This document shows positions 1,934 to 11,997 of a stretch of 33,876 nt of DNA, in pieces; position 1 is the first letter of the stretch, and each line of letters opens with the position of its first letter. The position numbers and the translations under genes were made by a program. The stretch is from Nevskia sp. (lineage in GTDB: Bacteria; Pseudomonadota; Gammaproteobacteria; Nevskiales; Nevskiaceae). Where the stretch lies: positions 1 through 33,876 of the forward strand of contig JAQGNS010000157.1 of NCBI GenBank assembly GCA_028291705.1, in the 5' to 3' direction. The notes beneath the pieces are model-generated. The model did no database searches. It was given only the letters and a program-made list of their open reading frames with translations, and was not told where the DNA came from.

Positions 1934-2444
1934 GGGAAAGTCTCAGGCCCTGCAAGCGCGAGCCACGATACAGACGGATGATCAGGAGCAGCGGCATGAT
2001 TCCCCATGGGATGTTGTAGCCGATGACCGGCCCCAAGGCACTGGCATAGCGGTCGGCCTCCAGCACTTCCCAGGTGAGGTAAAGGACCATGGCATAGATC
2101 ATGGCGCCGCAGGTCGAGTACGCGACAGCCCGGTAAAGCGGTGTATCGACCCGGCCCGTGGCCAAGGCATAAAGGCTGTAGACGTAGAAAGGGCTGAGCA
2201 GGAAGGTATCGAAGCCCACCAGCAAAGCCATCCACAAGGGCATGTCGAAGTAGACGCGGTCGTACTGGGCATACCCTTTCCAGATGGCTGCGATCGTCCG
2301 ATTGGTGCAGCTGTCGTGCCGCAAGCCGTCCCAGCCGCAGTAGAAGTAGAAGAGCGGCTCGTGCACGAAGGCGACCAGGCAGAACAGCAGGAACATCACG
2401 AAGAAGAATGCGTCCCAGGCCGGGAATGGCGAGCACTTAAACAT
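1926..2444 (-). CDS. Small membrane protein resembling emopamil-binding protein (EXPERA/EBP sterol isomerase-like)
   Basis: A 172-residue integral membrane protein with about four hydrophobic segments (near residues 10-28, 68-92, 104-126 and 144-162). The segment IWKGYAQYDRVYF resembles the LWKEYAKGDSRYI region of eukaryotic emopamil-binding protein (3-beta-hydroxysteroid delta8-delta7 isomerase). The later hydrophobic stretch ending MVLYLTWEV and the segment NIPWGIMPLLLIIRLYRG line up by eye with the last two EBP helices. The similarity is recalled, not searched, so treat EBP-like fold as probable and sterol isomerase activity as conjecture. The gene overlaps the upstream dehydrogenase by 8 nt (ATG within 2442-2444, upstream stop at 2437-2439) and the downstream one by 8 nt, so all three are almost certainly one transcript. 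A linked steroid or terpenoid substrate is plausible but unproven. Confidence 0.75.
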   Translation of the reverse strand: MFKCSPFPAWDAFFFVMFLLFCLVAFVHEPLFYFYCGWDGLRHDSCTNRTIAAIWKGYAQYDRVYFDMPLWMALLVGFDTFLLSPFYVYSLYALATGRVDTPLYRAVAYSTCGAMIYAMVLYLTWEVLEADRYASALGPVIGYNIPWGIMPLLLIIRLYRGSRLQGLRLSHA

Positions 2445-3537
2445 GGACCAAGTGCCGGTTGCGGGGCAGCGGCAGCTCCGCGCTGGTCAGGGGACGGGAT
2501 GGGGCGTCGCGAAGCGAGTGCAGGCTGTTGACCGCGGCCATCGCGGTTGCCAGGCCCGATGGATTGAAATCCGGGACGATCTGGCTCGCCGCAGTCCTGA
2601 GAAAGCTGTAGCGCGGCTCGAACGTACAGCGCAAGGAAGGCGTGCCTTCGATGGTGACGCGCCACTGCGTATCGTTGTCCATAGCCCCCGATCGCGGCCA
2701 GCTCTCGCCCAGGTCGAAGGCCGTGATCCAGTAGGTTTCCTGCACGATGCGCGGTACGCCAGCCGCCATGCCCTGCCACCGCCACCGCTGCCCGGCGATG
2801 GTGCCTGCCGGAATGTGCCCGGCGGCGATGTCGTAGGCGTGGGGCGTGACCGCGAATTCGCGCGACTCGTTGATTTCATCCAGCTCCAGATGCAGACCCT
2901 GGGCAAGCGCCACTACCGATTGCGTGAAGAAATCGCGCATGGTCGCAAGGTCCGGCAGTTTTCCGGACCGTACATCCTCGACGGTTCGGCCGAAGCCCAT
3001 GACGTTGAGGATGTGCGGTGCCGGATATTTGGCGCAGTCGGCGTATTCCCTGATGTTTATGGAACGAATGTCGCGGCACAGTGCCGACATGGTCAAGGGC
3101 AGGATCTCGTCCACCCAGCCGGGATTGATGCCGGTTACGTAGAACGTGGAGTCCCCCTTGGCGCAGGCGCGCTTCAGGCGCGCGGCCATTCCGGCGTCGC
3201 TCCAGCCTGGAAAGATCAGGCCTGCGGTGGTCACGACATTCTTTCCCGACTCGAGCAGGGCGCAGATCTGCTCCACATCGGGCAGCAGCATCATGTAACA
3301 CACCGCTTCGGCTTCGATGCGCAGAAGATCTTCAAACGACGTGGTCGCTTGTACCGTGCAAGCGCTGTCGACACCCGCAATCGCGGCGGCCTTTTCTCCA
3401 GCCCGGCTCTGGCCATGCACCAAGAGCCCCACCAGATCGAATGACGGGTTGCCGAGAATGGCGCGTAGCGCCTGGCGTCCGGCTACGCCGGTGCCGCACT
3501 GAATCACCCGCAATGGCTGCGATCGGTTCTGCTTCAT
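2437..3537 (-). CDS. DapB-fold NAD(P)-dependent dehydrogenase (2,4-diaminopentanoate dehydrogenase-like), paralogue 2
   Basis: This 366-residue protein begins MKQNRSQPLRVIQCGTGVAG, with a complete GxGxxG dinucleotide loop. It shares its length and many blocks with the gene at 854-1933 (LLPDVEQICALLESGKNVVTT, GINPGWVDEILPLTMS, DNDTQWRVTIEG). The frame is open further up to an ATG at 3636. I reject that start because a consensus promoter lies across it: -35 TTGACA at 3658-3663 and -10 TAGGAT at 3635-3640, so transcription would begin inside the longer frame. The extra 33 residues are also unlike the family. The ribosome site of the chosen start is weak. First gene of the three-gene operon. Reaction likely NAD(P)-linked oxidation or reduction of an unknown, possibly isoprenoid or steroid, substrate. 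That last point rests only on the EBP-like neighbour. Confidence 0.82.
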   Translation of the reverse strand: MKQNRSQPLRVIQCGTGVAGRQALRAILGNPSFDLVGLLVHGQSRAGEKAAAIAGVDSACTVQATTSFEDLLRIEAEAVCYMMLLPDVEQICALLESGKNVVTTAGLIFPGWSDAGMAARLKRACAKGDSTFYVTGINPGWVDEILPLTMSALCRDIRSINIREYADCAKYPAPHILNVMGFGRTVEDVRSGKLPDLATMRDFFTQSVVALAQGLHLELDEINESREFAVTPHAYDIAAGHIPAGTIAGQRWRWQGMAAGVPRIVQETYWITAFDLGESWPRSGAMDNDTQWRVTIEGTPSLRCTFEPRYSFLRTAASQIVPDFNPSGLATAMAAVNSLHSLRDAPSRPLTSAELPLPRNRHLVHV

Positions 3538-3634
3538 ATCTGCATTGCTCTGGACAGCCCTCGACCAGACGCGATCCTCCGGCTTGGCTTGGCCGCGGCG
3601 CAATGAGGCGCGGCTTATCGTGCTTATGCGGTCC

Positions 3635-3671
3635 ATCCTAGTTCAACAAAACATTTGTGTCAAAATGTTTT
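3635..3671 (-). promoter_or_regulatory. Sigma70-type promoter with overlapping inverted-repeat operator
   Basis: On the minus strand TTGACA (3658-3663, perfect -35) is followed after exactly 17 bases by TAGGAT (3635-3640, 4 of 6 of the -10 consensus). The -35 is embedded in a 9-bp perfect inverted repeat, AAAACATTT (3648-3656) and AAATGTTTT (3663-3671), separated by six bases. This is the layout of a repressor operator, for example of TetR type. No TetR gene is present in the window, so the regulator is unknown. It drives the three-gene operon 3537 to 854. Confidence 0.75.
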
Positions 3672-4640: not shown

Positions 4641-5075
4641 TTAACTGATCTGCGCCAGCACGGTGAAGCGTTCGTTCCTGATCCAGCCGAGCACCGGCTG
4701 TTGTCCGACTTCGACCCAGGCATGGGCGCGGAAATCACTGGAGTCCTCGGAGATGCCGATGCGGATGCAACTGTCCACGCCACGGCGCGCCAGCATGGAC
4801 CTGCCTGCCAGCGCGCGCATCAGGCAAGTGGGATCGCGCGGCAAGCGCACGCCGATGGCGTTGATCGACCAGGCGATCCGGTCAAACTGCTGCGGTGTCA
4901 GGGCAGGCGTTGCCTGCCTGGGGGTTGAGGGCGATTCAAGCAGACGCGACAGGCTCCGACCGTTCCACCGGACCTGAAACGTCGCCACGCCGAGGCTCGC
5001 GGCCGCTTCCACCAGCAGCATCAGCCGCCGCGGGCCCAGCAGGGCCAGTCGTCCGACGAGGTCAGTTGAGGACAT
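4641..5075 (-). CDS. Lasso-peptide biosynthesis B2-type leader peptidase (transglutaminase-like)
   Basis: This 144-residue protein matches the B2 family (PF13471-type transglutaminase fold). The nucleophile Cys sits in DPTCLMRALAGRSMLARRG and the catalytic His in FRAHAWVEVG, each in its characteristic setting. B2 proteins cleave the leader from RiPP precursors presented by the B1/PqqD partner. The start ATG (5073-5075) lies inside the end of the PqqD-like gene (14-nt overlap), so it is translated from the same transcript. Odd point: after HAWVE, where members usually carry an acidic residue following 'GxxVxG', this protein reads PVLGWIRNERFTVL. The third catalytic residue may therefore be missing or displaced. 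It is the last gene of the operon. No asparagine-synthetase-like lasso cyclase follows or precedes. Confidence 0.88.
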   Translation of the reverse strand: MSSTDLVGRLALLGPRRLMLLVEAAASLGVATFQVRWNGRSLSRLLESPSTPRQATPALTPQQFDRIAWSINAIGVRLPRDPTCLMRALAGRSMLARRGVDSCIRIGISEDSSDFRAHAWVEVGQQPVLGWIRNERFTVLAQIS

Positions 5076-5343
5076 GCAACAGCCGCGCGCCGATCATCTC
5101 GCACAGGAACCGGTCCAGGTCGGCGCCGCAGCGGTCCGCGCTCACGGCATACTCGGCAACGATCAGTTGCCGCAGTTGCTCCACTGTTCTGGGCGTATCG
5201 AGGTGATCCCAGATCCTGCGCCCCAGCGGATTCGCACTGAAGTATTTGCCGTTGGCGATGCTCAGCAGCGCCAGTTCGCCATTGCCAAGGCCGGTTGCAA
5301 CCAGTTCCGGCGAACGGGCCACCGCGGTTTTCGTATCGATCAT
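5062..5343 (-). CDS. PqqD-family RiPP recognition protein (lasso B1-like)
   Basis: A 93-residue winged-helix RiPP recognition element: beta strands with ALLSIANGKYFSANPLGRRIWDHLDTPRTVEQL, then helices (LIVAEYAV, DLDRFLCEMIGARLLHVL). The LN/NPxGxxIWxxLD pattern and C-terminal 'FLxxLxxxxLL' are diagnostic of PqqD-like proteins. These bind the leader peptide, contacting the Tyr-Pro-Leu motif seen in the precursor at 7147-7290, and deliver it to the B2 protease. The start at 5343 is fixed by a strong AGGAGG site seven bases upstream. A longer frame to 5436 is rejected. The ATG overlaps the stop of the ABC transporter gene by 4 nt (ATGA), and its 3' end overlaps the B2 gene by 14 nt. Confidence 0.9.
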   Translation of the reverse strand: MIDTKTAVARSPELVATGLGNGELALLSIANGKYFSANPLGRRIWDHLDTPRTVEQLRQLIVAEYAVSADRCGADLDRFLCEMIGARLLHVLN

Positions 5344-7205
5344 CGAATCGCCTCCTCTTGTTCCATTGCCGCAGGCTTCAGGATTGCGCCAGGCGCGCCG
5401 CTGCCACCACGATCCAGCGACACCAGGTTTCCACATCTGAGCTCCAGGACGTGGTCGGCGAGTGCGCGTACGGTCGGCCGGTGACTGACGATGAGCACGG
5501 TGCGGTCGCCCCGCCAGGCCCGCAGCCGGCTGAAGATGCGGGCTTCCGTTTCCGCATCCAGGGCATTGGTGGCTTCATCCAGAATCAGCAGCGCGGGGCG
5601 TTGCAGCACGGCGCGCGCGAGGCAGATGCGCTGGCGCTCGCCGCCGGACAGCATCGCGCCACGATCGCCGATCAGGGTGTCGAGGGCGTCCGGCAGGCGC
5701 GTCACGAAATCGCCGGCGGCGGCGAAGTCCAGCGCTTGCCATAGCTCCGCATCGCTGGCACCGGGCGCGCCCATGCACAGGTTTTCGCGCAGGCTGGTGT
5801 GGAATAGCGGGCTGTCGGTGCCGACGCAGGCGATGGAATTGCGCCAGGCGGCAAGCAGGTCCGGGCTCAGCCGGCGCCCGTCGATCAGCACCTGCCCGGA
5901 GGTCGGTTGCAGGAGCCCCGCCACCAGATCCAGCAGGGTGCTCTTGCCGGTGCCGGACGGCCCGATCAACGCGGTGATGGCGCCGGCATCGATTCTGGCG
6001 TTGAGCCGGTCGAGCACGGGCGATCGGCCATCCACTTGCGGGCCGTAGCGGAAGGAAACGTCGCGCAACTCGATTGCGCCGCGCAGCGCCATGCGCTCGC
6101 CACCGCTGTCCGAGCCCGCCTCCGCGGCAGCCTCGATGGTTTGCGTCAGCCGCAGTGTCTGCTCCAGGAACGGCAGGGCGTGATCGATCTGGTGATAGGT
6201 GGTCATCAGCGAGCCGACCCGCGGCCACAGGCGGAAGAAGACGAACAGCAGCACGACGATCTGGGCCAGGGGCAGATGCAGGCGGATCAACGCCAGGTAC
6301 AGCGTCAGCCCCATCATCAACGCACCCCACGCGGCCTGCATGGTGCGATTGGCGCTGGCATGCCGCAGCAGTGCCAGGTCGACATCGGCATACACATCGA
6401 GCGTCTGTTTCAGCTCCCCGAACACGCGCGCGGTCAGGCCATGGGTCTTGGCCCAGCGCACGGCGGCGAGCGAGTCGGCCACGGTGGCGTCGTAGGCGAG
6501 ACCGGCTTCGGCATAGCGCCGCCGCACCGCCCCCGAAGCGTCCCTGCGCATCGCGCCCAGCCAGAGCGGCAGCGCCAGGCCCAGCCCCGCCAGCAGGGTG
6601 ATCTGTGGCGACCAGGCGGCGCAGACGGCGGTGTAGACGGCAATCACCAGGCAGCCGGAAAGCAGTTGCCAGAACTGCTGGGCGCCGATCACCAGGTAGA
6701 CGGTGGCGGTGGTGAGCGCGTGCGTCACCTCCGCCGATTTGAGACCGCTGACGAAGGTCCAGCGCGCGCGCAGCAGGCCGGCGAGCAAGTCGCAGCGCAG
6801 CCGCCCGACAAAGGCATAGGCGATGCGGCGGTGCACGATGCCGGAATACTGGAGGACCACGCTCAGCAGGCCGAGCACCACGACATAACCGCACAGCAGG
6901 CCGTCGAATCCCAGGCGCGCCGCGATGGGATCGAACAAGCCGGCAAGCGGCGCACGCGCTGCAGCGCCGTCGTTATGCGCCTGCGCCAGCAGCGGCGTGA
7001 GCAAGAGCAGGGCGGCGAGTTCGAGCACGATGCAGCAGACCATGCCGACCACCGCGGCCATGGTGAGCCGAGGTGCGGCGGCCAGGATCTGCCTGCCGAA
7101 ATCGAGCAGGCGGTGTGCGGCCTGCCCGGTCCCGCCCTGCCCGGACTTATCCGCCAGAACCCCCGATGGGGACACGGGTTTTTTCCGTCCACTGGCCGTG
7201 TTCAA
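5340..7205 (-). CDS. ABC transporter, fused membrane and ATPase domains (RiPP exporter, lasso D-like)
   Basis: A 621-residue half-transporter. Residues about 45-330 form an exporter-type membrane domain with six hydrophobic segments. The ATPase domain holds Walker A GPSGTGKST, signature LSGGERQRI, Walker B ALLILDEATNALD and the H-loop SHR. It has no N-terminal C39 peptidase, so leader removal must be done by another protein, consistent with the B2 peptidase encoded downstream. The start is uncertain: TTG at 7205 has an AGGAG ten bases upstream and GTG at 7175 is an alternative. The next ATG (7061) would begin inside the first membrane helix. Either likely start overlaps the end of the precursor gene (7147-7290) in another frame, suggesting translational coupling. 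Likely exports the mature peptide. Confidence 0.9.
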   Translation of the reverse strand: MNTASGRKKPVSPSGVLADKSGQGGTGQAAHRLLDFGRQILAAAPRLTMAAVVGMVCCIVLELAALLLLTPLLAQAHNDGAAARAPLAGLFDPIAARLGFDGLLCGYVVVLGLLSVVLQYSGIVHRRIAYAFVGRLRCDLLAGLLRARWTFVSGLKSAEVTHALTTATVYLVIGAQQFWQLLSGCLVIAVYTAVCAAWSPQITLLAGLGLALPLWLGAMRRDASGAVRRRYAEAGLAYDATVADSLAAVRWAKTHGLTARVFGELKQTLDVYADVDLALLRHASANRTMQAAWGALMMGLTLYLALIRLHLPLAQIVVLLFVFFRLWPRVGSLMTTYHQIDHALPFLEQTLRLTQTIEAAAEAGSDSGGERMALRGAIELRDVSFRYGPQVDGRSPVLDRLNARIDAGAITALIGPSGTGKSTLLDLVAGLLQPTSGQVLIDGRRLSPDLLAAWRNSIACVGTDSPLFHTSLRENLCMGAPGASDAELWQALDFAAAGDFVTRLPDALDTLIGDRGAMLSGGERQRICLARAVLQRPALLILDEATNALDAETEARIFSRLRAWRGDRTVLIVSHRPTVRALADHVLELRCGNLVSLDRGGSGAPGAILKPAAMEQEEAIR

Positions 7206-7290
7206 CCAGCTTCGGCTCCTGATATGTTTTCTTGCCGATTTCGCTTTCTGCTTCCGGCTTTACCGTTTCCGCGGACTGCTGGACTTCCAT
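7147..7290 (-). CDS. Putative RiPP precursor peptide with lasso-type leader (47 residues)
   Basis: This small gene is not obvious from ORF length but is well supported. It has ATG at 7290, an AGGGGGAGGG ribosome site directly upstream, TAA at 7147-7149, and sits immediately before the exporter, RRE and leader-peptidase genes. The leader fits the lasso pattern Y-x2-P-x-L-x3-G-x5-T exactly: Tyr23, Pro26, Leu28, Gly32, Thr38 in KKTYQEPKLVEHGQWTEKT. With the conserved Thr at the second-last leader position, cleavage would follow Arg39. That leaves the eight-residue core VPIGGSGG. This core contains no Asp or Glu at positions 7-9, so it cannot form a lasso macrolactam. I infer either a linear or otherwise modified product, or a decayed core. 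Confidence 0.8.
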   Translation of the reverse strand: MEVQQSAETVKPEAESEIGKKTYQEPKLVEHGQWTEKTRVPIGGSGG

Positions 7291-7328
7291 GGTCCCTCCC
7301 CCTTGCTTCGGTTGAAAGCTGTTCCTGC

Positions 7329-7354
7329 CTGCCTGGCAATCAGCTTGCCGGCAG
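7329..7354 (-). terminator. Hairpin between FG-GAP gene and RiPP precursor (possible attenuator)
   Basis: Plus-strand arms CTGCCTGGCAA (7329-7339) and TTGCCGGCAG (7345-7354) pair with one bulge around a five-base loop. It lies in the 69-base gap between the FG-GAP stop and the precursor start. No T-run follows on the minus strand. It could partly terminate or protect the transcript and set different expression of precursor versus lipoprotein. No promoter is visible in this gap. Confidence 0.35.
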
Positions 7355-7359
7355 CACCC

Positions 7360-10300
7360 TTATTTTTGCGGCACGATGGAAATCGCGTTGGCGCTATAGG
7401 CAGTCGCCACGATGCCTAGCTCGTGGGTACCAAAAAAATCGCCCACAGCCACTGCTCCGGGATTTTGGCGGACCGACAGCGGCGAGCCCTTGGCCGGTGT
7501 CAGCACACCGGACTTCGAGCCGAGCAGCAGTGAAACGTTGTTGCTGCCGAAATTGGCGACCGCCACGTCCGCCACGCCGTCGCCGTCCAGGTCGCGGACC
7601 CGGATGCCGAAGGGGTTGATGCCGACGTTGTAGTTCTGCGCCGCGGCAAAGCCGCCGGCACAGTTGCCGAGCAGGACCGACACGTTGTTGGATAGGTAAT
7701 TGCCCGCGATCACGTCGATACAGCCATCGCCGTTGACGTCGCCCACCGCGATGGGATCGGGTGCCGAGCCGACGGCGTACGAGGGAGTCGGTGCCGGGTT
7801 GAAATTGCCCGCACCATCGCCCAGCAGGATGCCGACGCTGCCGCCGTTGGAGTTGGACACCGCCAGGTCGAGCTTGCCGTCGCCGTTGAAATCAGCCGCT
7901 TCCACACCCCAGGGGCCGGCCAGCACGGCGTTCCCCGTGAGGTTGCTGCTGAAGCCGAAACTGCCGGTATTGAGCAGGATAGACACACTGGTGGCGCCCT
8001 GGTTGGACACCGCCAGATCCGGCTTGCCGTCGCCGTTGAAGTCGCCCACCGTGACCCAGGCGGGAGTCGCACCCACCGAGATCGACCCTTGCGAGGTAAA
8101 GGTGCCGTTGCCGTTACCCTTGAGCAGGGTGACGGTGCCCGAGCCGCGGTTGACCACGGCGAGATCGATCTTGGCGTCGCCGTCGAAGTCCGCCGCGACC
8201 AGGTGATAAGGCGTGGTGCCGACCGTCACCGGCGAACCCGAAGCCGCGGTGAAATGACCGGCGCCGTCACCGAGCAGGATGGTCACGTTGTTGCTGCTCC
8301 CATTGGTGACGGCGACGTCGAGCTTGCCGTCGCCGTTGAAGTCGGCTTCCACCGCGTCGATGGGGTTGCTTCCGGTAGCGGCCGAGGCCTGCGCCAGCAC
8401 TGCCGAGGGGACGGCTAGGCTGCGCGTATTGTTGCCCAGGAGTACCGAGAAGGTGTTGGCGGCGCTGTTGATCACCACCGCATCGGCGGCACCGTCGCCG
8501 TTCAGGTCGGTGATGGCGATCGCGCCGGGGGCTGTGCCCACGGCGGTGGTGGCGCTGGCCGGCGACGAGAAGCCGCCAGAGCCGTTGCCGTAACCGGCGA
8601 GGACCGTTCCCGTGGTGGAGTTCGAGTTGAGGATGTCGATGTTGCCGTCGCCGTCGAGGTCTCCCGCGGCGATGCCGTCGGGCGCGGTCACGCCCGAGCC
8701 GTAGGTACCGCCGGACAGGCCGCCGGTGCCATTGCCGAACAGCACGCTGACGTTGTTGCTGCCCTTGTTCGCCGTGGCCACGTCCGGGATGCCGTCGTGA
8801 TTGAAGTCGGCCACCACCAACGCCACCGGCGTGGTGCCCACGCCCTGGGCCGAGCCGAACAGGTTGGCCGCGGCGATGCTGAAACCGCCGCTGCCGTTGC
8901 CGATGGCGAGGAACACCTGGTTGGTGGTCTGCGCGGCGACGACGATGTCGGTGTTGCTGCCGCCGTGGAACTTGCCGGCGCCGATGGCGCTGAAGCCGGT
9001 GGGCCCGGAGACGCCGATAGTGCCGACGCCGAAGGTGCCGGTACCGCTGCCGAACAGTACCGATACCGTATTGCTGGTGAAGTTGGCGACGGCAAGATCA
9101 AGCTTGCCGTCGTTGTTGAAATCGCCGGTCGCGATGGCCACCGGCTTGGTACCGACGGTGACGGGCGAACCGCTGGCGGCGGAAAAGAAGCGGTTGCCGC
9201 CACCCTGGTTGAGCAGGATGGTGACGTTGTTGGTGGTGCTGTTGGTGATCGCCAGATCGAGATAGCCGTCGCCGTTGAAGTCTCCCGCCACTACCGCCGA
9301 AGGCGCGGTTCCGGTGGAGAAGGAGGTCTGCACACCGTAAGTGCCATCCCCATTGCCGTAGTAGATGCTGACGAAGTTGTTGCCGGTCATGGCGATCGCC
9401 AGATCCGGGATGCCGTCGTGATCGAAGTCGGCGACCGCGACACCCGCCGGTGTCGTGCCGGTGATGTTGCCGCTGCTGTAGCTGCGGAACTGCGCCTCCG
9501 ACGGCGTCACGCCGCCAACGTAGAAACTGCCGACGAAGGGTGCGGGATGGGTGCTGCCGCTGCTGGTGAGCAGGCTGGTCAGACTGAAATCGACTTTCTC
9601 GCCGGCGAAAAACGGAGCCGAATGCCCGTAGGAAAGATTGCCGCCATTCAGGATATAGCTGGTCCCTACAGCAGCGCGAACTGACTCTGAACTGTTCACC
9701 ACGAATCCTGTGGCGACGTTGGTGAAGGTCATCGGTTGGCAGAAAGCGGTCTGAACGGCAGCAGTCCGTGCTATTCCGCTGAGGTTGTAAGGCGCCGAAG
9801 CCAGGTTGGGACTGCTGCCGGCGTTGACCAGGTAGGCGGTGGGACTGGCGACCGGGCCGGCGCTGCGCACGGTGCAGATGGGGTCGCCGATGTTGCTGGC
9901 GGTGACATGGCTGCCGCCCAGCACCGCCAGGTCGATGGATGAGAGGGTAGCGGCGCGCAGGTTCGCAGCGAGGTCGCCCAGCGGATTCTGTTCCTCCGGG
10001 CTCTGGGTGACGCGGGTGGTGCTGTCGGTCAGCACCTGCAGGTCGTACTGGAAGGAGTACACGGCATTGGCTTTGCTGCCCGGTGTGGGCAGCTTCACCG
10101 CGAAGGTGAACTGGCCGTCGAACTCCCCTGACTGGGGGTTGGCCTGGAGCGTGCGCCCCAGTGCCGGGTTGACGTTGTGCACCACGAAACCGTATGGCAG
10201 CAGGTAGGAGCCCGCAACATCTTCCGGGTCGATGGCGATACCGGCGATCTGGGACTCGCTGAAGACCTGCAGGGATTCCGCGCCGACTTGCACCTCGGCC

Positions 10301-10857
10301 GCGTCGTGCAGCGGATTGAAGACCATGCCGTGCGTGGGCAGGATGGTGGTGGCGATACTGGCCGGCTCGTTGCTGCCGTCGAATTTCTTGAGCGAGATAA
10401 ACGGGGTGCCGTTGATGGCGAAGCCGGGCTCGACCAGGCCGACCAGGGTGACGTTGCTGAGGGCGCCGTTGGCAGTACCGGCGGTGCAGCCGTTGCCGCT
10501 GACGCCTTGGGCATTGCGCACCAGGAAAGTGAAAGCAGCGTACTGCTGGGATGCAGTATTGAAGGCACCGGAGTCGATCGGGCTGCCCTGGATCTGCAGG
10601 AAGCAGGGTTGCGTGCTCAGCACACGGGCCTGCGGGCCACCGATGCTCTGGGAATTGGGCTGGTCGATGTTGGTGGCAGTCGCAACGGGATGCGGCGTGC
10701 CCAGGCCGTCGACGCTGATGCGGATGATGCCTGCCGCATGCGCTGTGGGCGGCGCAGCGGTGTCGCCACCCCCGCCGGAATCAGAGGAACCGCCGCAGGC
10801 ACTGAGTATCGTGACGGCCGCAAACAAGACAGCGGCAACTGCCGGCCTTTTTTCCAT
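7360..10857 (-). CDS. Large lipoprotein with 14 FG-GAP/VCBS-type repeats
   Basis: A 1165-residue exported protein. The N-terminus is a lipoprotein signal: hydrophobic AVAAVLFAAVTILSAC with the lipobox Cys at residue 21, then a Gly/Ser linker. Residues about 40-490 match no domain I recognise. From about residue 500 to the end lie 14 repeats of roughly 45 residues, centred on motifs such as VADFDHDGIPDLAIA. Twelve keep the calcium-loop pattern D-x-[DN]-x-D-G and two (AGKFHGGSNTDIVVA and VGDFFGTHELGIVAT) have lost it. Fourteen equals two seven-bladed beta-propellers. Such proteins act at the cell surface in binding or adhesion. Start: ATG 10857 has AAGGGGG about nine bases upstream. An ATG at 10866 abuts the same site and is less likely. 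It precedes the RiPP genes on the same strand. Confidence 0.9.
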   Translation of the reverse strand: MEKRPAVAAVLFAAVTILSACGGSSDSGGGGDTAAPPTAHAAGIIRISVDGLGTPHPVATATNIDQPNSQSIGGPQARVLSTQPCFLQIQGSPIDSGAFNTASQQYAAFTFLVRNAQGVSGNGCTAGTANGALSNVTLVGLVEPGFAINGTPFISLKKFDGSNEPASIATTILPTHGMVFNPLHDAAEVQVGAESLQVFSESQIAGIAIDPEDVAGSYLLPYGFVVHNVNPALGRTLQANPQSGEFDGQFTFAVKLPTPGSKANAVYSFQYDLQVLTDSTTRVTQSPEEQNPLGDLAANLRAATLSSIDLAVLGGSHVTASNIGDPICTVRSAGPVASPTAYLVNAGSSPNLASAPYNLSGIARTAAVQTAFCQPMTFTNVATGFVVNSSESVRAAVGTSYILNGGNLSYGHSAPFFAGEKVDFSLTSLLTSSGSTHPAPFVGSFYVGGVTPSEAQFRSYSSGNITGTTPAGVAVADFDHDGIPDLAIAMTGNNFVSIYYGNGDGTYGVQTSFSTGTAPSAVVAGDFNGDGYLDLAITNSTTNNVTILLNQGGGNRFFSAASGSPVTVGTKPVAIATGDFNNDGKLDLAVANFTSNTVSVLFGSGTGTFGVGTIGVSGPTGFSAIGAGKFHGGSNTDIVVAAQTTNQVFLAIGNGSGGFSIAAANLFGSAQGVGTTPVALVVADFNHDGIPDVATANKGSNNVSVLFGNGTGGLSGGTYGSGVTAPDGIAAGDLDGDGNIDILNSNSTTGTVLAGYGNGSGGFSSPASATTAVGTAPGAIAITDLNGDGAADAVVINSAANTFSVLLGNNTRSLAVPSAVLAQASAATGSNPIDAVEADFNGDGKLDVAVTNGSSNNVTILLGDGAGHFTAASGSPVTVGTTPYHLVAADFDGDAKIDLAVVNRGSGTVTLLKGNGNGTFTSQGSISVGATPAWVTVGDFNGDGKPDLAVSNQGATSVSILLNTGSFGFSSNLTGNAVLAGPWGVEAADFNGDGKLDLAVSNSNGGSVGILLGDGAGNFNPAPTPSYAVGSAPDPIAVGDVNGDGCIDVIAGNYLSNNVSVLLGNCAGGFAAAQNYNVGINPFGIRVRDLDGDGVADVAVANFGSNNVSLLLGSKSGVLTPAKGSPLSVRQNPGAVAVGDFFGTHELGIVATAYSANAISIVPQK

Positions 10858-10885
10858 GGCTTCCATCCCCCTTGATGCGTCCTCA

Positions 10886-10904
10886 ATCCTGCTGCAAGCA
10901 GGAT
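10886..10904 (-). promoter_or_regulatory. Perfect 8-bp hairpin/palindrome in the leader of the FG-GAP gene
   Basis: ATCCTGCT (10886-10893), GCA, AGCAGGAT (10897-10904) is a perfect inverted repeat about 30 bases upstream of the lipoprotein start. It could be an RNA hairpin in the 5' leader or an operator. I found no riboswitch consensus here. Confidence 0.4.
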
Positions 10905-10958
10905 CCGGACGGGTCCTCTCCGACCTCGTTTGATTCATTCTGGGGCGCGGTCTGGTGG

Positions 10959-11006
10959 GCGTATACCCCCTGTATGAGTACGGCATCCGGCATCACCCGT
11001 ATACGC
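10959..11006. repeat. Pair of GTATAC-centred 8-bp inverted repeats
   Basis: GCGTATAC (10959-10966) and GTATACGC (10999-11006) are perfect reverse complements 32 bases apart, in the divergent region between the FG-GAP gene and the sigma factor gene. The 363-base stretch 10867-11229 has no gene that I can support. It contains this repeat pair, the 10886-10904 palindrome and the direct repeat at 11072-11138. Confidence 0.4.
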
Positions 11007-11071
11007 GCGCCTGATAAAAAAGCATCCATCCGTCACCGCCCGAAGCGGATTCCGCTTTTTACAATCGGGTA

Positions 11072-11138
11072 TGTAGGTCTTACACGCTTTGGCGAATCCA
11101 TGGCTGGCAACCAGATGACGATGAAGGCCTAACACGCT
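11072..11138 (+). repeat. Direct repeat upstream of the sigma factor gene
   Basis: AGGTCTTACACGCT (11075-11088) and AGGCCTAACACGCT (11125-11138) are 14-base direct repeats with two mismatches, spaced 50 bases start to start. Agreement extends a little upstream (ATGtAGG / ATGaAGG). They end about 90 bases before the sigma factor ATG, a position suited to a regulator binding in register. Confidence 0.4.
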
Positions 11139-11229
11139 GAACGGATTGATATTTCGCTTCGACCTCGAAGATGGCACGCCGCTCGCTCGTATATCCGGGA
11201 CACGAGTCCCCAACCCCGGAGAATAAAAA

Positions 11230-11997
11230 ATGAGCGCAGTAGCCCTGATCAAGCTGAACACCCGCACCGCTGGCCGCCGCACCCGTCAACGTGCGGCGCA
11301 GGCCCCGAGCCGGCAGGGCAAGGTCACGGCGCTGGCTGCGCAGACCAGCGCGCTGCGGGCGCCGGTTGTTGCGCATATTGTGCCGGCGCAGGCCGAGCCG
11401 GTGGTTGCCCGCGAAGCGCAGGTCGATCACAACGCCGATCAGGCGCTGGTGGTGCGGGCGCAGGGTGGCGAGCAGATTGCCTTCGAGTTACTGGTGCGCA
11501 AGTACCAGGGCCGCGTCATCCAGCTCGTAGCGCGCCTGGTTGGTGAAGGCGACGCCCCGGACGTGGCGCAGGAATCCTTCATCAAGGCGTATCGCGCGCT
11601 CGGCAGTTTCCGCGGGCAGAGCGCGTTCTACACCTGGCTATATCGCATCGCCATCAACAGCGCCAAGAACCATCTCGTCTCGCGTTCACGCCGTCCGGCC
11701 ACCCAGGATCTGGATGTGGCGGATGCCGAGAAATACGGGCATGAGGAACATCTCAGCGATCTGGCCACGCCGGAAGCCAACCTGCTGGCCGACGAGATCA
11801 AGGACACGGTTGCGCATGTGATGATGAAGCTGCCGGCCGATCTGCGGCAGGCGATCACGCTGCGCGAGATGGAGGGGCTGAGCTACGAGGAAATCGCGCA
11901 GGTAATGGAATGCCCGATCGGCACCGTGCGCTCGCGCATCTTCAGGGCGCGTGAGGCGATCGACGTGGCGGTGAGTCCGCTGCTCGCCCACAACTAG
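11230..11997 (+). CDS. rpoE: RNA polymerase ECF sigma factor, RpoE/AlgU type, with N-terminal extension
   Basis: A 255-residue protein. Residues from about 66 onward are a normal RpoE/AlgU: region 2 with FELLVRKYQGRVIQLVARLVG, DVAQESFIKAYRAL and FYTWLYRIAINSAKNHLV, and region 4 with LPADLRQAITLREMEGLSYEEIAQVMECPIGTVRSRIFRAREAI. It directs RNA polymerase to envelope-stress promoters. The first 60-65 residues are an Ala/Arg/Gln-rich extension absent from the usual ~190-residue protein. The start has GGAGA eight bases upstream, so the extension looks translated, though an internal GTG start cannot be excluded. Unusually, no rseA/mucA-type anti-sigma gene follows. A terminator and an unrelated convergent gene come next. 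Confidence 0.9.
   Translation: MSAVALIKLNTRTAGRRTRQRAAQAPSRQGKVTALAAQTSALRAPVVAHIVPAQAEPVVAREAQVDHNADQALVVRAQGGEQIAFELLVRKYQGRVIQLVARLVGEGDAPDVAQESFIKAYRALGSFRGQSAFYTWLYRIAINSAKNHLVSRSRRPATQDLDVADAEKYGHEEHLSDLATPEANLLADEIKDTVAHVMMKLPADLRQAITLREMEGLSYEEIAQVMECPIGTVRSRIFRAREAIDVAVSPLLAHN

Follow-up and report, generated by a model that had tools for sequence, protein, structure and literature searches.

Association of a lipoprotein N-terminal domain with lasso-leader precursor genes on Deinococcus plasmids and beside a lasso-type peptide locus of Nevskia sp.

The DNA analysed here (the window) is a stretch of 33,876 nucleotides from Nevskia sp. (GenBank assembly GCA_028291705.1, contig JAQGNS010000157.1), and our subject is a gene for a lipoprotein of 1165 amino acids (7360..10857, minus strand) that stands next to a small peptide gene. 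It was found by sequence comparison that residues ~22-351 of the lipoprotein, which we call the N-domain, belong to a family spread over plasmids of Deinococcus, a radiation-resistant genus unrelated to the host of the window; that predicted lasso-leader precursor genes lie immediately upstream of Deinococcus N-domain genes far above chance, some of them overlapping the N-domain gene; and that the predicted N-domain gene of the window adjoins a lasso-leader precursor gene, which is followed by genes for a lasso-type ATP-binding cassette (ABC) exporter, a PqqD-family protein (B1) and a lasso-type leader peptidase (B2). We propose that the lipoprotein and the small peptide gene may be two halves of one system, in which the peptide would be the anchoring or presenting partner of the N-domain, and we give this reading a probability of about 0.42.

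The initial annotation of the lipoprotein gene had described a lipid-anchored protein with 14 FG-GAP repeats, 12 of them with a calcium loop, and an unrecognised N-terminal region. As read off the translation, a signal peptide with the lipobox ILSAC and Cys21 (10795..10857), which bears out the lipid anchor, is followed by an N-terminal region of ~440 residues and then by the FG-GAP repeats (7363..9468), all on the minus strand. Both repeat counts were reproduced: FG-GAP_3 (PF13517) matched with 317 bits over 13 stretches and FG-GAP (PF01839) with 164 bits, both above cut-off, and the 12 canonical calcium loops start at residues 477, 526, 579, 684, 733, 784, 839, 890, 939, 989, 1040 and 1089, with degenerate repeats at ~629 and 1140 bringing the total to 14 (positions 784 and 629 were taken from the printed repeat rows and not from the loop list). 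This number equals two times seven and fits two seven-bladed propellers; single-sequence AlphaFold2 models, made for residues 22-463 and for the repeats, were unusable (mean predicted local distance difference test scores of 33 and 34). The N-terminal region comprises the N-domain (residues 22-351, 9805..10794) and a link region (residues 352-463, 9469..9804) that is also present in a paralog on contig C607 of the same genome. The description of this region as unrecognised holds in that it had no Pfam or NCBIfam match above cut-off and no match in the PDB at E <= 1, but residues ~22-351 represent a family shared with Deinococcus.

A tblastn search with the N-terminal region against 72,556 plasmid records returned 8 records, all from Deinococcus, with E values down to 2e-26. 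Conversely, a profile made from Deinococcus N-domains only matched the window protein at 6.6e-57 and three other proteins of the Nevskia genome, on contigs C607, C522 and C171, at 3.5e-69, 3.4e-61 and 2.5e-17, respectively, but none of the 30 control loci described below, and we regard the kinship of the predicted window and Deinococcus N-domains as firm. The domain sits after the lipobox in an alignment of 20 rows, and in Deinococcus it forms either a free-standing lipoprotein of ~345 amino acids or the head of a longer one. The parts that follow it vary, consisting of FG-GAP, RCC1, Vgb-like or immunoglobulin (Ig) domains or an ExeM/NucH nuclease; RCC1 and Vgb-type repeats are themselves propellers. 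The first profile (A4) matched the ExeM protein of D. radiodurans at 2e-16 and Ig proteins of D. radiodurans and D. ficus at 1e-22 and 2.5e-22, and it did not detect the IPT/TIG proteins or the ExeM proteins of D. psychrotolerans and D. wulumuqiensis. Four rows (two ExeM and two IPT/TIG) were first put into the alignment by eye, and a profile built without them matched all four and a fifth protein at 8e-34 or better. A census with the N-domain profile gave 37 places in 12 Deinococcus plasmid records, 32 of which were kept as genes; the five omitted places were three second pieces of genes already counted and two weak or fragmentary matches.

The 12 records comprised eight from the N-domain search, three from the B2 search and one from later homology searches, with near-identical D. 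radiodurans strains counted as one record. When a profile built from 12 precursors was run on these 12 complete records, it found 18 places, and 16 of the 18 had an N-domain gene less than 400 nt downstream on the same strand, a proportion that is not unbiased, as the records were chosen for an N-domain, B2 or precursor and the profiles were partly trained on them. Random placement in 20,000 trials paired a mean of 0.03 and a maximum of 2 of 17 places. Seven of the eight places outside the training set of the precursor profile were paired, five of these seven having partners that were in the N-domain alignment. On one plasmid there are seven precursor places, and each is followed by an N-domain gene of its own. 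The two unpaired places were W07:410081, a strong match, and W02:273294, which is probably a chance match (E 0.128). Counted from the other side, 16 of the 32 N-domain genes have a precursor directly upstream. The pairing of predicted precursor and N-domain genes in Deinococcus is thus well supported, and we consider a functional link between lipoprotein and peptide there to be probable.

Individual loci show how close this association is. In D. gobiensis, D. ficus and Deinococcus QL22, a lasso-leader precursor open reading frame (ORF) lies directly upstream of the N-domain gene, and overlap of the precursor with the gene that follows is seen in D. radiodurans (ExeM), in D. psychrotolerans and at two loci of strain KNUC1210. 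In D. radiodurans MP1, one precursor overlaps the gene for the ExeM/NucH nuclease and a second stands ahead of an Ig-domain gene, and precursors also stand ahead of the ExeM genes of D. psychrotolerans and D. wulumuqiensis. All 12 aligned precursors, which were partly chosen by the leader motif, have its Tyr, Pro, Gly, Trp and Thr without exception; the Deinococcus leaders keep these residues in the register of the window precursor, and most continue with a core of the form xxSxPxGPG. Genes for PqqD and B2 proteins occur within ~10 kb in QL22, D. wulumuqiensis and D. psychrotolerans, with HprK-like proteins (below curated cut-offs) beside PqqD in QL22 and D. psychrotolerans and with B2 fused to a nucleotidyltransferase domain in QL22. 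The architecture that appears closest to that of the window is in NZ_CP092196 (KNUC1210) near 322 kb, where a precursor remnant is lined up with an N-domain piece and with VCBS/FG-GAP pieces and the protein is annotated in four pieces.

Some further features of the Deinococcus loci were observed. Two KNUC1210 precursors (L107 and L108, NZ_CP092196 near 33 kb and 2 kb) have Ile and not Thr as the penultimate leader residue, as is reported for Bradymonas. A third N-domain protein of D. radiodurans MP1, of the DUF3616 type (L081:11410-14796), has no precursor and comes directly after B2. In five plasmid loci (L072, L073, L074, L075 and L080), one or two genes for large surface proteins come after a free-standing N-domain gene, together with two or three genes annotated as "tail fiber protein", a collar domain having been checked in one of them.

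In the window, the minus-strand order is lipoprotein, precursor, ABC exporter, B1 and B2. The precursor gene (7147..7290) encodes 47 amino acids with a lasso-type leader, YQEPKLVEHGQWTEKTR, and a predicted core VPIGGSGG; it has the lasso leader motif YxxPxL...G...T-x, and its match to NCBIfam NF033528 is below cut-off (E 0.0011). The exporter gene (5340..7205) has an uncertain start, TTG 7205, GTG 7175 or ATG 7061, and because the two upstream candidates fall inside the precursor gene, translational coupling of precursor and exporter is possible. B1 (5062..5343), a PqqD-family recognition element of the kind found with ribosomally synthesized and post-translationally modified peptides (PF05402, 4e-15), probably starts at ATG 5343, which is preceded by GAGGAGG, and its gene overlaps that of B2 (4641..5075), a transglutaminase-like protein that matches NF033537 with 81.5 bits against a cut-off of 33. 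Since B2 retains the conserved Cys84 and His118, cleavage of the leader is plausible.

The lipoprotein gene and the ATG of the precursor are separated by a gap of 69 bases (7291..7359), as originally stated, and the earlier remark that this gap has no visible promoter also agrees with our search, in which no sigma-70-like site was found in 6900-11300, although this is weak evidence given an expectation of 0.7 sites. The gap contains a GC-rich hairpin that folds no better than shuffled sequences (z -0.8) and is not followed by a U-run. Nothing here speaks for complete termination and nothing proves co-transcription, and a single transcript across the gap is unproven. No conserved upstream sequence shared by the precursor genes of the window and of contig C63 of the same genome was found, with 131 of 300 shuffles scoring equally.

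None of these predicted cores could form a lasso ring in the standard register, by which we mean a cut after T-x. Asp or Glu at core positions 7-9 was found in none of 18 cores (16 from Deinococcus, the window and C63; the remnant W05:322198 and the weak match W02:273294 are excluded from the 16). The window core contains no acidic residue, and like that of C63 it ends at position 8. Ser3 is present in all 16 cores from Deinococcus. The cyclase motif SGGxDS was absent from 20 loci (365 kb), and no ORF of this type was found in the window or in 10 kb of C63; an SGGxDS cyclase-like ORF was present in 10 of the 25 B2-type genome stretches described below. The Nevskia genome encodes one full-length PF00733 protein, with an amidotransferase-like N terminus as in glutamine-dependent asparagine synthetase, and three other matches that are short and weak. 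A search with a cyclase-like ORF of a lasso-type locus (L044), identified by the motif, reached Priestia and Butyrivibrio clusters and no Deinococcus plasmid, its sensitivity being limited, as it also missed the asparagine-synthase-type gene of a Thalassobaculum cluster.

The initial annotation had suggested that FG-GAP lipoproteins might neighbour the same B1/B2/ABC set in other genomes, and this largely fails. As a control we used 30 B2-type loci (502 kb), consisting of 25 genome stretches (including a weak B2 locus of the same Nevskia genome), 4 plasmid loci and C63. A profile from the FG-GAP repeats of the window protein matched none of the 30; it also missed one FG-GAP-like protein that was seen by tblastn, in genome G099 (L043:4975-8214), where a B2-like gene lies beside a convergent gene for an FG-GAP-like protein of another architecture. 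A profile search found no N-domain in these 30 loci, and the precursor profile matched C63 and, weakly, L045. Because the C-terminal parts of the Deinococcus proteins vary, the link to the peptide appears to run through the N-domain and not through the FG-GAP repeats. The partnership of peptide and lipoprotein that had been suggested for the window therefore gains support from the presence of the N-domain beside lasso-leader precursors in a second phylum, by way of a different part of the protein.

The window is a complete contig (C469) of a genome of 5.88 Mb in 614 contigs (98.9% complete, 4.6% contamination). On contig C63 of this genome there is a second precursor-ABC-B1-B2 set, whose precursor ends in TLPPIGGSGF and is 62% identical to that of the window; a protein beside it is weakly HprK-like, far below curated cut-offs. 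At least three further N-domain genes are present, on C607 (44% identity), C171 (61%) and C522 (40%). These four copies were the only N-domains found in Pseudomonadota among 117 relatives, 369 genomes of the class and 398 of the phylum (own genome included), an absence that is not firm, as the class and phylum surveys scored no more than 4 or 5 candidates in each genome; three short matches from the phylum survey, covering 60-90 model positions close to the lipobox (E 6e-4 to 1e-3), are left out of this number. The precursor profile, run on the 369 class genomes, matched the two precursors of the Nevskia genome, both members of the profile by construction, and gave weak matches (E 1e-4 to 0.08, not counted) in 16 other genomes. 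Scans of genome contigs with the N-terminal alignment and with B2 confirmed nothing, their exact patterns having been too strict to inform. Viral contigs scanned with the N-domain of D. gobiensis gave no confirmed match, and phage records gave no match.

Several observations weigh against the proposed partnership in the window. A profile made from Deinococcus precursors only gave 14.7 bits for the window precursor and 14.6 for C63, compared with 21.0 and 19.0 for the lasso-like precursors of G115, 17.1 for that of L045 and 13.9 for that of L066; the window precursor was rejected as a Deinococcus subtype, as it scores like ordinary lasso precursors, and a tblastn search with it found no Deinococcus plasmid. 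What the window and C63 precursors have in common with those of Deinococcus is the general lasso leader motif and a Trp two residues past the Gly, and not the xxSxPxGPG core: the window core is without Ser3 and without the P-x-G-x-G pattern, and both Nevskia cores have Ser6. The gene order is also reversed, with the precursor downstream of the lipoprotein gene in the window and upstream in Deinococcus. No FG-GAP or N-domain match was found within the 10 kb examined at C63, and no precursor was found beside the N-domain genes on C607, C171 and C522, the first having only 249 bases upstream on its contig and the other two being cut by contig ends. In a genome of the same genus (G012), relatives of B1 and B2 were found without a precursor, ABC exporter or FG-GAP protein in 18 kb. 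Within Deinococcus itself, the strong W07 precursor (L076:8782-9012, minus strand) has no downstream N-domain gene, the nearest one facing it from ~2 kb, and 16 of the 32 N-domain genes lack a precursor, five of these being the second of a tandem pair (three of the five behind a precursor-bearing gene); the selection of records described above counts here as well. What both phyla appear to have in common is an N-domain lipoprotein beside a cyclase-free lasso-leader precursor, and not one demonstrable peptide family. The extension of the Deinococcus pairing to the window is less well supported than the pairing itself, although we still lean towards a functional link between lipoprotein and peptide in the window.

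In genome G115, two near-identical lasso-like precursors lie in tandem (L113, G115:C221), the first with an Asp at core position 8 as judged by eye, on another contig than the B2 gene of that genome.

The failure of the subtype test led us to rate the proposed partnership and the cross-phylum pairing system considered last lower and an accidental adjacency in the window higher. If the adjacency is accidental, the pairing would be confined to Deinococcus and the FG-GAP lipoprotein would be unrelated to the adjoining peptide genes, in keeping with the three paralogs without a visible precursor, the C63 peptide locus without a lipoprotein, the reversed gene order and the want of special kinship between the precursors. 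We consider this unlikely, however, as the N-domain family pairs with precursors far above chance in Deinococcus and is absent from the 30 other B2-type loci, and as by our arithmetic the chance that one of 4 N-domain genes and one of 2 precursors in 5.9 Mb would fall on the same strand within 100 bases is near 1e-4. The peptide could also be an ordinary lasso peptide with its cyclase encoded elsewhere in the genome, since the leader motif, B1, B2 and ABC exporter are of lasso type and the score of the window precursor falls among those of ordinary lasso precursors. The lack of an acidic residue at positions 7-9 in all 18 cores makes this very doubtful, as do the amidotransferase-like N terminus of the only full-length PF00733 protein, the other three being short and weak, and the finding of no Deinococcus plasmid by the cyclase query, though this query also missed the Thalassobaculum gene.

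Lasso peptides are commonly secreted and bioactive, and the peptide might be a signal or antimicrobial with the N-domain lipoprotein as its receptor or immunity protein; the exporter gene adjoining the precursor and the lipid anchoring of the lipoproteins at the surface would suit such a role. Nuclease, Ig and unrelated repeat domains at the C termini would nevertheless be odd for receptors of one peptide, and on one plasmid seven precursor places are each ahead of their own N-domain gene; we hold this explanation to be improbable. Finally, the small ORF overlaps the gene after it in several Deinococcus loci, which could mean that it is a mere translational leader controlling the lipoprotein gene and that its likeness to a lasso leader is incidental. 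In the window and C63, however, the ORF stands at the head of ABC-B1-B2, and the lipoprotein gene of the window precedes it. The invariant leader residues of the 12 precursors, bearing in mind their partial choice by that motif, and the PqqD and B2 genes nearby in QL22, D. wulumuqiensis and D. psychrotolerans also speak against a translational leader, to which we give little credence. As to the "receptor, target or presentation partner" of the initial annotation, we favour presentation or anchoring and rate receptor or target as possible at a lower level.

A mechanism for the favoured partnership can be sketched. B1 would hold the leader, and a cut by B2 behind the T-x site would set free a short peptide, VPIGGSGG in the window and xxSxPxGPG... 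in most Deinococcus cores, which may be phosphorylated in sets with an HprK-like protein. The ABC exporter would take the peptide out to the N-domain of its Sec-exported, lipid-anchored partner, where it could have a structural or regulatory role in folding, anchoring or releasing the lipoprotein at the envelope. The variable C-terminal part would thereby be displayed, in the window a calcium-binding and probably double propeller. The gene overlap and the presence of one precursor per lipoprotein point to partners that are made together and not to a free natural product, and the varied C termini suggest that a constant pair of peptide and N-domain handles location or display. Docking or anchoring as the mechanism is tentative.

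Comparison with known systems gives both likenesses and differences. In the bsf cluster of Bradymonas sediminis, a kinase is reported to phosphorylate Ser3 of BsfA, and one end of the cluster adjoins an FG-GAP repeat protein, which the authors left out of consideration (PMC10368454). Lasso clusters with split B1/B2 and a kinase (bsf and paeninodin-type) resemble the present loci in the YxxPxL leader, which has T or I at -2, and in the discrete PqqD-type B1, transglutaminase-like B2 and ABC exporter. Further likenesses are the HprK-like protein and nucleotidyltransferase domain of some Deinococcus sets, the Ser3 of the Deinococcus cores, as in BsfA, and the FG-GAP protein next to bsf. The loci described here differ in that no cyclase was found, there is no Asp or Glu at positions 7-9, the Gly-rich core of the window is very short and the precursor genes are paired with N-domain lipoproteins. 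The window protein resembles FG-GAP/VCBS beta-propeller surface proteins (PF13517, PF01839) in its 14 calcium-loop repeats and lipobox, whereas its N-domain is absent from Pfam and NCBIfam and is common to nuclease, RCC1, Vgb-lyase-like and Ig proteins.

The ExeM/NucH gene of D. radiodurans MP1 (DR_RS15795) is presumably DRB0067. DRB0067 is reported to be the only extracellular nuclease of D. radiodurans and to be retained at the hexagonal layer until irradiation leads to its release, and its deletion is reported to sensitise cells to H2O2 (PMC3554781). Like the window protein, the ExeM/NucH protein has an N-domain after the lipobox and a lasso-leader precursor next to its gene, which in this case overlaps the gene start; it differs in its C-terminal nuclease and lamin-tail domain, in the upstream position of the precursor and in a divergent B2 gene beside it. 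Deletion of SEP068184 of D. radiodurans is reported to change the level of DR_B0067, and we considered SEP068184 as a precursor and dropped it, as it is described as a protein that resembles molybdopterin (MPT) synthase and interacts with cytoplasmic proteins (PMC9650054). Among titles and abstract openings of the open-access literature, a scope outside which preprints and most subscription papers fall, we found no description of a pairing of a peptide with an N-domain lipoprotein.

Other features of the window lie around these genes. The lipoprotein gene shares a region of 372 bases (10858..11229) with a divergent gene for an RpoE-type sigma factor (11230-11997; TIGR02939, 283 bits), the match of which begins at residue 66, leaving an N-terminal extension; GTATAC inverted repeats at 10951-11014 in this region are a candidate regulatory site. 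Two dehydrogenase genes (854-1933 and 2437-3636, minus strand) with the same 2,4-diaminopentanoate dehydrogenase C-terminal domain stand around a gene for an EXPERA-domain membrane protein.

If the proposed partnership is true, lasso-type recognition and leader peptidase modules would have come to supply surface lipoproteins with a processed peptide of their own, a use of this peptide chemistry that we did not find described. This would account for some "lasso B2" genes that have no cyclase and assign a function to a lipoprotein domain of two phyla that has no name as yet. The extracellular nuclease of D. radiodurans (PMC3554781), with its gene starting within a precursor gene, would be a tractable test case. 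For genome mining, such small ORFs, some of them unannotated, need not be orphan lasso peptides. It is conceivable, though we are inclined to doubt it, that in both phyla a cyclase-free lasso-type machinery makes short peptides, some of them phosphorylated, that dock on or are joined to the N-domain and are not secreted products; one maturation set could then serve many pairs with different heads (calcium propeller, RCC1, nuclease or Ig), including the stress-linked nuclease of D. radiodurans.

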